Shown here: positions 41,494-53,635 of the stretch, piece by piece
How the letters are laid out: each line of letters starts with the position of its first letter
How positions within the stretch are numbered: the first letter of the stretch is position 1
Assembly (NCBI RefSeq): GCF_015169395.1
Contig: NZ_CP063458.1
Coordinates: forward strand, 434,001 to 498,000
Reading direction: 5' to 3'
Length of the DNA stretch: 64,000 nucleotides
From: Humisphaera borealis
Lineage (GTDB): Bacteria > Planctomycetota > Phycisphaerae > Tepidisphaerales > Tepidisphaeraceae
Made by a program: the position numbers and the translations under genes
The notes under the pieces: generated by a model
Database searches by the model: none
Seen by the model: only the letters and a program-made list of their open reading frames with translations
What the model was told of the DNA's origin: nothing

Positions 41494-41640
41494 GTGGCAT
41501 GGGCATGGACGGATGCCCGCGGCGGTAACCCAGCAGTCACACGAACCACGGGCACCGGCGTACCGCAGTCCATGGCACCCGGACATTGGGTCGCCGCAAC
41601 CCGAATCGCGGACACGGACAAGCATACTTGCCTATGCCAC
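41494..41640. repeat. GTGGCATGGGCA-family elements upstream of hflX
   Basis: One copy starts GTGGCATGGGCATGGACGGATGCCC at its left edge in shortened form (core GGGCAT-GGACGG-ATGCCC) at 41494-41518, and a degenerate inverted copy (GGACAAGCATACTTGCC, then TATGCCAC) ends at 41640. Both are related to the tsf-rpsB spacer element at 42544-42687. Confidence 0.75.
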
Positions 41641-41707: not shown

Positions 41708-42520
41708 TCAGGCCTGGCCGACTTCCAGCCGGACGTAGCCGGTCAGCTCGACGCCGCCTTGCTTGACGTACGCGGCGATGTTGCCCTTGAACACGCCGGC
41801 GTTGAAGAACTCCTGGTCGAGCAGGACGCGCTCGGCGAAGAACGAGTTCATCTTGCCCTCGGCGATCTTCTCGGCGATCTGCTGGGGCTTGCCGGTGGCC
41901 TTGGCCTGCTCGACGGCAAAGTCGCGTTCCTTGGCGACCAGGTCGGCCGGGACGGCGTCGCGGGTCAGGCCGGCGGGGCGGGCGAACGCGATGTGCCCGC
42001 CGAGCTGCTTGACCAGGTCTTCCGACGGGTTGCCCTTGAACGCCATGATCACACCGATTTTGCCGGTGATGCCGTAGAGGTAGAGGCCGACCTTGCCGCC
42101 GGCGGGGGCCGTCAGCCGGGCGGTCTTGCCCAGGCGGACGTTTTCACCGGTGGTCTGCGAAACCTTGGTCAGCTCGCCGGCGACTTCCGGCAGGGCGGCG
42201 ACGTCGCCTTCGGCCTTCAGCAGGGCGGCGGCGGCGATGGCACCGACGGCCGAGAGCGGCTCGCTCTTGGCGGTGAAGTCGGTGTTGCAGTTGACCTCGA
42301 CCAGTGCCGCGGCAGAGCCGTCGGCGGCGACCGCGCCAAGGACGCGGCCTTCGCTGGCGGCGCGCTCGGTCAGCGACGACTTCACGCCCTTCTTGCGGAA
42401 GTATTCGATCGCCTTTTCAAGATCTCCGCCCGTTTCCTGAAGGGCCTTCTTGCATTCCATCATCCCCTGGCCCGTCTTGGAGCGGAGGTCGTTGACGAGC
42501 TTTGCGGTGATTTCCGCCAT
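41708..42520 (-). CDS. tsf: Translation elongation factor Ts
   Basis: 270 residues. It exchanges GDP for GTP on EF-Tu. The N-terminal UBA-like domain has VNDLRSKTGQGMMECKKAL and the signature CNTDFTAKSEPL is near residue 80; the C-terminal dimerisation domain follows. ATG at 42520 with GGAG 8 bases upstream is used. rpsB lies upstream, separated by 193 bp that consist largely of palindromic repeat. Confidence 0.96.
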   Translation of the reverse strand: MAEITAKLVNDLRSKTGQGMMECKKALQETGGDLEKAIEYFRKKGVKSSLTERAASEGRVLGAVAADGSAAALVEVNCNTDFTAKSEPLSAVGAIAAAALLKAEGDVAALPEVAGELTKVSQTTGENVRLGKTARLTAPAGGKVGLYLYGITGKIGVIMAFKGNPSEDLVKQLGGHIAFARPAGLTRDAVPADLVAKERDFAVEQAKATGKPQQIAEKIAEGKMNSFFAERVLLDQEFFNAGVFKGNIAAYVKQGGVELTGYVRLEVGQA

Positions 42521-42543: not shown

Positions 42544-42687
42544 GTGGCATGGGCATGTACTCATGCCCGTGCGCGGATCGCGCTTCGTCACACGGGCGCT
42601 ACCACCCGTGATTCGGCTCGCGTCGGATGCCGTGGGACGCACTTTCTGCAAATCGAAGACACGGGCAAGAGTACTTGCCCATGCCAC
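42544..42687. repeat. Paired GTGGCATGGGCA elements in the rpsB-tsf spacer
   Basis: Left arm 42544-42571 and right arm 42660-42687 match at 26 of 28 positions. Each arm is also a hairpin on its own: GGGCATG-TACT-CATGCCC on the left and GGGCAAG-AGTA-CTTGCCC on the right. The two differences between the arms are exactly the two partners of one base pair of that hairpin. Confidence 0.92.
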
Positions 42688-42713: not shown

Positions 42714-43556
42714 TCAGCCCGCGACAGCGGGTTCGGCGGCCGGGGCGGCGGTTGCCGGGGCTTCGCCGCCGACCGGGGCCGGTGCGCCCTCGTCGGCCTT
42801 GAAGCTCGACCGGGTGCTGCGGCGGCGGGGGCCGCCGGCCTGGCCGTCATCTTTCGCAGCCGGGCGGGTGCCCTTGGCTTCGATGATCGAATCAGCCAGC
42901 TCCTGCATGATGATCTCGACGGCCTTCATCGCGTCGTCGTTGCCCGGGACGGGCAGGTCGATCAGCTCGGGGTTGCCGTCGGTATCGATCAGCGCCACCA
43001 CCGGAACGCCCAGCTTCTTGGCTTCCTTGACCGCGATGTGCTCGCGGCGGGTGTCGATGATGAACATCGCGCCCGGCATCTTTTCCATCTTGCGGATGCC
43101 TTCGAGGTTGGCCTTGATCTTCTTCATCTCGCGGCCGAGCGTGCTCTTCATCTTCTTCGAGTAGGTCTCGATTTCACCGGTGGTGAAGAGTCCTTCGAGC
43201 TCGTCCAGGCGGTTGAGGCGGCGACGGATGGTCGCGAAGTTGGTCAGCGTGCCGCCAAGCCAACGCTCGCCGACGAAGTGCATGCCGCAACGCTTCGTCT
43301 CTTCTTCGACGGCGTGGCGGGCCTGGCGCTTGGTTCCGACGAAGAGGACGTCCTTGCCGTCGGCGACGATCTTGGCCAGGAACTTCTTGGCGCGGAGCAG
43401 ACCCTTCACGGTCTCCTTCACGTCAATAATGTGAATGTTGTTGCGCTTGCCGTGGATGTACGGTTCCATCTTCGGGTTCCACCGGCTGACGCGGTGACCG
43501 AAGTGAACGCCTGCATCGACGAGCTCTTTGACCAGTTCTGCGGGAGTGCGGGACAT
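42714..43556 (-). CDS. rpsB: 30S ribosomal protein S2
   Basis: 280 residues: a full-length S2 core of about 230 residues (LVDAGVHFGHRVSRWNPKM, FVGTKRQARHAVEEE, RWLGGTLTNFATI, DLPVPGNDDAM) plus a C-terminal extension rich in Ala, Pro and Gly (from KDDGQAGGPRRRSTRSSF to the end), a type of tail seen in planctomycete S2. The ATG at 43556 begins MSRTPAELVKEL; a longer frame upstream has no ribosomal likeness. It leads the rpsB-tsf operon. Confidence 0.95.
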   Translation of the reverse strand: MSRTPAELVKELVDAGVHFGHRVSRWNPKMEPYIHGKRNNIHIIDVKETVKGLLRAKKFLAKIVADGKDVLFVGTKRQARHAVEEETKRCGMHFVGERWLGGTLTNFATIRRRLNRLDELEGLFTTGEIETYSKKMKSTLGREMKKIKANLEGIRKMEKMPGAMFIIDTRREHIAVKEAKKLGVPVVALIDTDGNPELIDLPVPGNDDAMKAVEIIMQELADSIIEAKGTRPAAKDDGQAGGPRRRSTRSSFKADEGAPAPVGGEAPATAAPAAEPAVAG

Positions 43557-43982
43557 GCGAATACCACTTTTCCGAACGGAGCAGCCCGGGCGTCGCCGGT
43601 TGCCAAGAAGACCGGAGAGACCATGGGGCTTCATTCTCGCCGCCCGCTGCGGCCCACACGGGCTGCCGGGCGATCGAGATAAGTTGAGTCTACGCTTCCA
43701 GTTATCGCCGGTGGGTTGACGCGTGGCGTCCCTCGGAGAGATGGAGAACGTGCCCGGCCTTGGCGAGCCGAGACGAGCAAGGATACCGCGCCGGCTGAAC
43801 TCGTTCAAGGGCGGCTGAACCGTTGCGCTCGGCCGGACCGCCGGGCCGGTGACACCGGGCAGCCGTGAATAACCCCCTCCGATACACTTCAGCTGCCGAT
43901 GATACACCTATCGACCGGTTACCATGGACGAGGCTTCCACTGGTGCGTGATCTAATAGCGACCTGGTCCTCAGGAGACACTC
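43557..43982. other. Gene-free divergent spacer
   Basis: 426 bp upstream of rpsB (minus) and a lipoprotein gene (plus). It should contain the ribosomal operon promoter. I found no coding frame with a sensible start, no tRNA cloverleaf and no long repeat; two GATACAC words (at about 43876 and 43897) are the only notable repetition. Confidence 0.4.
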
Positions 43983-52491: not shown

Positions 52492-53635
52492 GCCAATCGC
52501 AAGTCCGCGAGAAGACTATCGAGTTGTCCCTGAACAGAAATACTGCCCTCAATGCGCCGACCCCCTCGAACGGCTTGATCGGGCTTGCCGGATGGCTCCT
52601 CTGGGCGGCTCCGCCGGACGGCGGGGCTTCCGCGGCGTGGCGCAACGCCTCCAGTTTCCAGGCGGGCCGGCGGGGCTGGGTGGTCACGGGCGTACCGAGG
52701 ACTCCTGGCGGCCGGGCCGATTTCGGATGGCATGGCGACGGTGCCCTTTGCCCGGGACGGGCGTCGGTCGGCGATCGCCACGGGCAAGCGGGTACGCTTG
52801 CCCATGCCACCCGGAATCCGAACGACTGGCGCCGGGCGGATTTCGCTTGTATTCCAAGGCCGCGTACCTAACATAAATAAAACAATATTCGGCGTCGCCC
52901 TGGGACGGGCGGCGCCCTTCCTCCATGCGCCGGTCCGCGGGTGTGATCCGTCGGCCTTCAGCGTGTACTCCGTGGAGATGGCCGTCCCTGGACGATCGGT
53001 GTCGGTCGGGCTGGGGTGGTGGTGTTGGTGTGTTGGAGAAGCGGAGACTTGGAGACGCGAGAGACGACGTGGGCAGGCTGATCGATCACTTGGGTTCGTT
53101 CGGCGATATCGCGCGAACGCTCCGCTCCGCGTCGCGGCTAACCATCTTCGTGGGATGGAACGAACCCTGCACGCGCTCCGCGACGACGGTTGTGCACTTG
53201 CGACGACGGGTTATGTGCTTCCGGCGATGGGTTAGCCGCGACGCGAAGCGGAGCGTCCCCGGGCGGGTTGGTCGCCCTGATCGAGCGTCGTCCGACCACG
53301 CCGGGTTCGTTCGGCGCGGGACGGAACGTCGGACGGCGGGAACATCGCCGGTGGTCTACGGGGTGCGGTGGGGTGAACCCCACCCTACGGTCGCCTCGGG
53401 TTCATTCGGCGCGGTTGCGCCGGGTTCGTTCGGCAATCTGCGCTTGCCGATTCGGTGTTCGATGTTGGGTGTTCGATGTTCGATGTTCGCCTTCGGCCTC
53501 GGGTTCGTTCGGCCATCTTGCGCCGGGTTCGTTCGGCGAAGCCGAGTGGCGACCGATCGTTCCCGACAGGCCCATCAACAACCGTCGACCTTCGCCAATC
53601 GACAATCCGCCTTCAACCTTTCACAATCCCGCACC
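52492..53635. other. Gene-free, repeat-rich kilobase upstream of ilvA
   Basis: 1.14 kb with no credible gene. It contains a GTGGCATGGGCA-family hairpin (GGGCAAGCG-GGTA-CGCTTGCCC at 52782-52803), a GGTGGGG-TTCA-CCCCACC element at about 53368, six dispersed copies of GGGTTCGTTCGGC and a run of tandem GTTCGATGTT words near 53458-53490. The long plus frame into ilvA through this stretch has no protein-like composition. Confidence 0.6.
53092..53537 (+). repeat. Six dispersed copies of GGGTTCGTTCGGC
   Basis: Copies at 53092, 53303, 53398 (one substitution), 53422, 53501 and 53525, all in the same orientation and preceded by C/T-G or CC. Spacing is irregular (211, 95, 24, 79, 24 bases), so it is not a tandem or CRISPR array. 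Confidence 0.9.

Follow-up and report, generated by a model that had tools for sequence, protein, structure and literature searches.

The rpsB–tsf spacer and its two arms

The stretch of the Humisphaera borealis genome analysed here (64,000 nt, hereafter the window) contains rpsB and tsf, which both lie on the minus strand and are separated by an intergenic spacer of 193 nt, within which two inverted 28-nt arms enclose 88 nt. REPINs are inverted pairs of REPs, small imperfect palindromes that carry a GTRG-like foot (PMC3116915, PMC3733652, PMC8266576); these terms are used below for the features of the window, with RAYT standing for a REP-associated tyrosine transposase (C1 is the single contig of the genome).

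41494..41521, plus strand: degenerate REP of the ATG type, 28 nt, which opens a cluster of three REPs on the left
41547..41578, minus strand: degenerate GTGCC-type REP in the cluster, 3 mismatches away from the one flanking the RAYT at C1:1060208-1060777
41613..41640, minus strand: degenerate REP of the AAG type, 28 nt, which closes the cluster on the right
41708..42520, minus strand: tsf (EF-Ts), the downstream neighbour, whose 270-aa product served as query
42544..42571, plus strand: left REP arm, ATG type, 28 nt (foot GTGG and hairpin CATGGGCATG-TACT-CATGCCCGTG)
42572..42659: REPIN spacer, 88 nt (usual length 18-32)
42660..42687, minus strand: right REP arm, AAG type, 28 nt (foot GTGG and hairpin CATGGGCAAG-TACT-CTTGCCCGTG)
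42714..43559, minus strand: rpsB (ribosomal protein S2), the upstream neighbour (MSRTPAEL start within a longer ORF; upstream end approximate)
52779..52810, minus strand: single 32-nt REP, AAGCG-TACC-CGCTT

The two arms are 26/28 complementary (93%). Written in one orientation, their sequences are GTGGCATGGGCATGTACTCATGCCCGTG and GTGGCATGGGCAAGTACTCTTGCCCGTG, with mismatches solely at positions 13 and 20, which are the partners of one hairpin pair (that is, ATG-TACT-CAT versus AAG-TACT-CTT). Each arm has a fold of its own, ....((((((((((....)))))))))), comprising a 10-bp stem, a TACT loop and a single-stranded GTGG at the 5′ end, with folding energies of −9.8 and −9.7 kcal/mol (z = −4.5 and −5.3) that were equalled by 0 of 200 shuffles. 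A preliminary description of this DNA had claimed this arrangement (inverted 28-nt copies with two differences, each folding alone, the differences being partners of one stem pair) and had reported related stems elsewhere in the window; the alignment and the energies bear it out, and the related stems correspond to the three-REP cluster (41494-41640) and the single 32-nt REP. Taken in isolation, the whole strand folds into one long arm–arm hairpin of −47 kcal/mol, the two mismatches notwithstanding, and energy alone thus does not favour the single hairpins.

With a total length of 144 bp, the element is an outlier among the doublets of the genome. A search across the genome for homologues of its 88-nt spacer returned matches confined to REP arms, and the spacer is therefore probably a private insertion or extension. 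As the REPIN was absent from all readable rpsB–tsf spacers of family relatives, the insertion at this locus is lineage-specific. The three-REP cluster and the rpsB–tsf element were also considered as one duplicated long-spacer REPIN, an idea rejected on the poor alignment of their spacers. The segment of ~360 bp around the single REP (window ~52759-53119, L019) is 88% identical to C1:577938-578300 (L020), and more repeated blocks lie downstream of it.

A dispersed REP family and associated transposases

The REP foot GTGGCATGGGCA (at most one mismatch) occurs at 258 sites in the 7.19-Mb single-contig genome versus 44 for a reversed control, and the 28-nt form (at most three mismatches) in 66 copies versus 0, from which it follows that the repeat is not due to chance. 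Full hairpins fall into three sister subfamilies, that is, a short one (28 nt, with ATG or AAG ahead of the TACT loop), a long one (32 nt, AAGCG or AACGG) and a GTGCC subfamily (32 nt, TGCGG, TGGCG or TGACG; 56 copies around the TGCGG type). The 5′ tetranucleotide is GTGG in 158 of the 173 copies of the GTGGC family and GTGC, a variant, in 48 of the 50 copies of the GTGCC sister subfamily. The copies were recruited by pattern and fetched as small stretches, a sample biased to near-consensus copies; within it lie 96 inverted head-to-head pairs, whose lengths cluster at 74-81, 85-86 and 87-91 bp (long subfamily 85-86 bp, GTGCC 85-91 bp, short mostly 70-88 bp). The family thus combines an imperfect palindrome within the 20-40 nt range, dispersed in many copies, a GTRG-like foot and inverted doublets with characteristic spacing, as REPs and REPINs do. 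Within REPINs, the mean number of mismatches carried per arm is 1.5 for the short subfamily, 1.36 for the long one and 0.87 for GTGCC, values compatible with a greater age of the short subfamily and with continued service of the GTGCC subfamily by its RAYT.

This RAYT (C1:1060208-1060777) scores 88.6 bits to NCBIfam NF047646 (REP-associated tyrosine transposase; cutoff 80), shows HVH and GGGYDRN motifs in its translation, for the HUH motif and the catalytic Tyr region, and lies between two inverted 37-nt copies of the GTGCC sister REP that match perfectly. Its best relative (55% identical, 91.3 bits), in G015, a genome of the same taxonomic family but another genus, has the flanks GTGGCATGGGCAAGTACYCTTGCCCGTG and is bounded by GTGGCATGGGCAAGTACCCTTGCCCGTG and GTGGCATGGGCAAGTACTCTTGCCCGTG, the latter being the exact right arm at rpsB–tsf. 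A REP of the family therefore flanks a RAYT gene in both genomes, as the GTGCC sister REP here and as the exact 28-nt REP in G015. The solved TnpA_REP structure (PDB 4er8) is a distant sequence match to the RAYT of this genome (E = 0.0022).

In all, 11 Y1_Tnp genes were found in the genome, plus one more through a protein search, most of them with flanking inverted repeats of their own, and the exact 28-nt REP is carried at the gene ends by 0 of the 11 (PF01797). Given that G015 has a RAYT for the short subfamily and none was found here, this RAYT may have been lost from the genome, and the rpsB–tsf copy could then be a fossil. The genome as a whole contains at least 12 Y1/RAYT-like genes (L031-L041, L206), most of which have a different pair of inverted repeats at their flanks, and two of them lie within larger frames. 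In L034 (C1:3414568-3417792, minus strand), a helicase ORF of the DinG/YoaA type, reported as 935 aa, is interrupted in frame by a RAYT-like domain together with its 48-nt flanking inverted repeats, and matches to the helicase continue beyond the insert. In L041 (C1:928940-932101, plus strand), the C terminus of a thiamine phosphate synthase continues in frame into a RAYT-like domain (594-aa frame), the two being joined via a repeat translated as VGQTFLSAD.

Within the taxonomic family, exact GTGGC REPs occur only in this genome, G015 and G023. The last has 32-nt REPs, with the long pair types also present there as a heterodimer, and a clear homologue of the C1:1060208-1060777 RAYT was not found in its 86%-complete assembly. 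The nearest named records with the repeat are MAGs of Phycisphaerales and other Planctomycetota.

Covariation and the origin of the paired change

Among 72 short copies, 36 have T:A at pair 13/20, 31 have A:T and 5 have something else. In the 41 distinct short sequences, the structure is paired in 94% of cells, and the covariation score is 0.171 versus 0.091 for shuffled alignments (none of 500 reached it) and no more than 0.079 for slid controls. Comparison of 223 copies with their nearest master type gave 11 compensated double changes (0.75 expected; maximum of 6 in 2,000 simulations) and 2 uncompensated ones (0.74 expected; simulation maximum of 5), counts that are not independent events given that the copies share descent. 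One-sided stem-breaking changes number 59 against a simulation mean of 81, a shortfall that may partly reflect how the copies were recruited. Because compensated doubles exceed chance and one-sided breaking changes are nevertheless present in such number, the single-REP hairpin is conserved among the source elements or lineages that spread, and individual copies decay after insertion.

The preliminary description had taken the paired difference at rpsB–tsf as direct evidence that the hairpin is maintained. Maintenance holds for the family, the genome-wide copies of which covary, but a compensatory event at this locus does not. It had also reasoned that the change would be chance if unpaired stem changes were as frequent as paired ones, and this comparison, taken literally, goes against it among individual copies (59 versus 11). 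The 31 A:T copies are not 31 independent covariations but a few founder events multiplied by copying, which serves as a warning that part of any covariation count on dispersed repeats has this source.

Given that the ATG/AAG combination recurs at 381087-381167 and 7036673-7036753, plus about a dozen decayed others, and that the AAG type occurs alone in other genera, the rpsB–tsf arms are two pre-existing REP types, and the change did not arise at this locus. The AAG type forms homodimers in G015 and in the B14T1B10 MAG, and an exact-pattern scan did not detect the ATG type outside this genome; AAG is thus the likelier ancestor and ATG the likelier derived type, which reverses the T:A to A:T direction assumed at the outset. 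Derivation of one arm type from the other by simple inversion of the hairpin apex does not work on inspection.

How the arm types themselves originated is a separate matter from the identity of the element. By template switching inside the quasi-palindrome, a mechanism put forward for RNA hairpins (PMC8794818), one half of a stem would be copied onto the other, so that paired changes would stem from mutation and functional selection would be unnecessary. The paired changes do cluster at the apex of the stem (columns 13-15), a possible site for a patch templated by the hairpin; however, the same process would erase the T–G wobble at pair 7, which is kept in nearly all copies, and the 59 unpaired changes imply that any such correction is inefficient. 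We consider this origin rather unlikely.

Heterodimeric arms and the REPIN reading

In all three subfamilies there are pairs in which compensatory changes distinguish the two arms. Heterodimers make up 19 of 30 pairs in the short subfamily (14.4 expected; P = 0.08, an excess that is not significant), 32 of 42 in the long (20.1 expected; P = 0.0001) and 21 of 21 in the GTGCC subfamily (10.8 expected; reached in 0 of 20,000 shuffles). The preference itself is already known: Di Nocera et al. (2013) described it with “no obvious explanation” and suggested escape from SbcCD (PMC3733652).

One conceivable cause, proposed there in general terms and an addition to the REPIN reading more than an alternative, is that the arms were selected to weaken arm–arm pairing and so to escape cruciform- or hairpin-cleaving repair, with the REP hairpins left intact. 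The whole-element fold is less stable in heterodimers than in homodimers by ~6 kcal/mol (short) or ~15 kcal/mol (long and GTGCC), single-arm energies are about equal across types within a subfamily, and AACGG/AACGG and TGCGG/TGCGG pairs are lacking among the inverted pairs counted. Yet a few heterodimeric founders and their descent would give the same bias and explain the data as well, 10 AAGCG/AAGCG and 11 short homodimers persist, and G015 and the B14T1B10 MAG carry AAG homodimers. Escape from repair is thus unlikely as the cause, and we are equally doubtful of the broader proposition that selection keeps the arms different (that is, that apical paired changes either weaken arm–arm pairing or mark left and right ends for the RAYT) and so produced three parallel heterodimeric subfamilies.

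Taken together, repeat number, pairing, geometry, covariation, association with RAYTs and absence from relatives’ spacers point to the rpsB–tsf feature being a REPIN, a non-autonomous element composed of two REP hairpins in inverted orientation, which entered the spacer in this lineage (probability roughly 0.93). Each REP consists of GTGG at the 5′ end followed by an imperfect 10-bp hairpin with the loop TACT, as recognised by RAYTs (TnpA_REP) on single-stranded DNA, and the REPINs of this superfamily are usually heterodimers of two REP types with compensatory differences at apical pairs. Before amplification, each REP may have been selected for hairpin recognition; a RAYT then probably copied the heterodimeric unit to sites across the genome, and neutral decay of the copies may have followed insertion. 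Against the REPIN reading stand the RAYT flanked by the exact 28-nt REP, known only from another genus, the G023 REPs without a clear RAYT homologue, the non-significant heterodimer excess of the short subfamily, the atypical spacer and the long hairpin as best fold. A local RNA regulator of the rpsB–tsf transcript (an attenuator, processing site or mRNA-stabilising hairpin, with the change selected at the locus) is highly improbable and was rejected: strong hairpins do lie in the intergenic spacer of a co-directional pair, a loose scan rates the rpsB-proximal arm as terminator-like and in several relatives this spacer contains a hairpin of its own and then a T-run, but the same arms occur in the same combination at other genome sites, the element is absent from the readable spacers of family relatives, no Rfam family matches at the site (elsewhere only weak, sub-threshold miRNA matches) and the terminator-like tail TTCGATTTGC is weak, shuffles yielding 0.7 matches.

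The REPIN reading makes the element a well-formed representative of a known type of bacterial repeat, from a REPIN family specific to its lineage, and not a new gene-control element. In Pseudomonas fluorescens SBW25, doublets are better kept than singlets and compensatory changes occur in the spacer hairpin (Bertels and Rainey 2011, PMC3116915); the elements described here share with these REPINs the dispersed inverted REP pairs, the fixed spacing and the link to RAYTs, but their arms usually differ at apical pairs whereas those of SBW25 are mostly two identical REPs, their host is a planctomycete and their foot is GTGG or GTGC. Heterodimeric dimers are known from GTAG-3 of Enterobacteriaceae and GTAG-24 of P. 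aeruginosa, the latter differing at stem residues 12 and 13 (PMC3733652). These are likewise head-to-head dimers of REPs with different stems or loops, but they belong to other sequence families and another phylum, and here the habit is common to three sister subfamilies of one genome. The y and z REPs of E. coli BIMEs also combine two different types in inverse orientation, and E. coli TnpA_REP acts on single-stranded REP hairpins with a 5′ tetranucleotide (PMC8266576); E. coli REPs, however, have a bulge and GTAG, and the RAYT here is related only distantly by sequence to the solved TnpA_REP. The present genome thus documents a REPIN/RAYT system with heterodimeric arms for a phycisphaeral planctomycete that has three sister REP subfamilies together with an identifiable RAYT, and the co-occurrence of homo- and heterodimers of the same subfamilies makes the published heterodimer puzzle (PMC3733652) testable within a single genome.

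Two further kinds of repeat were noted along the contig. Perfect or near-perfect 36-bp palindromes (GTGGCATGGGCA...TGCCCATGCCAC) occur at C1:642468-642503, 1366508-1366543, 1529937-1529972, 1883883-1883918, 3368442-3368477 and 4758455-4758490, among others, and look like REPINs collapsed via deletion between direct repeats that lie within the two arms. Another REP family, GTGCCACGGGTCGGCGGTACTCCGCAGACCCGTG, which has a TACT loop too, is present at C1:2123832, 2455309, 3542072 and 3542155 and sometimes adjoins GTGGC REPINs.
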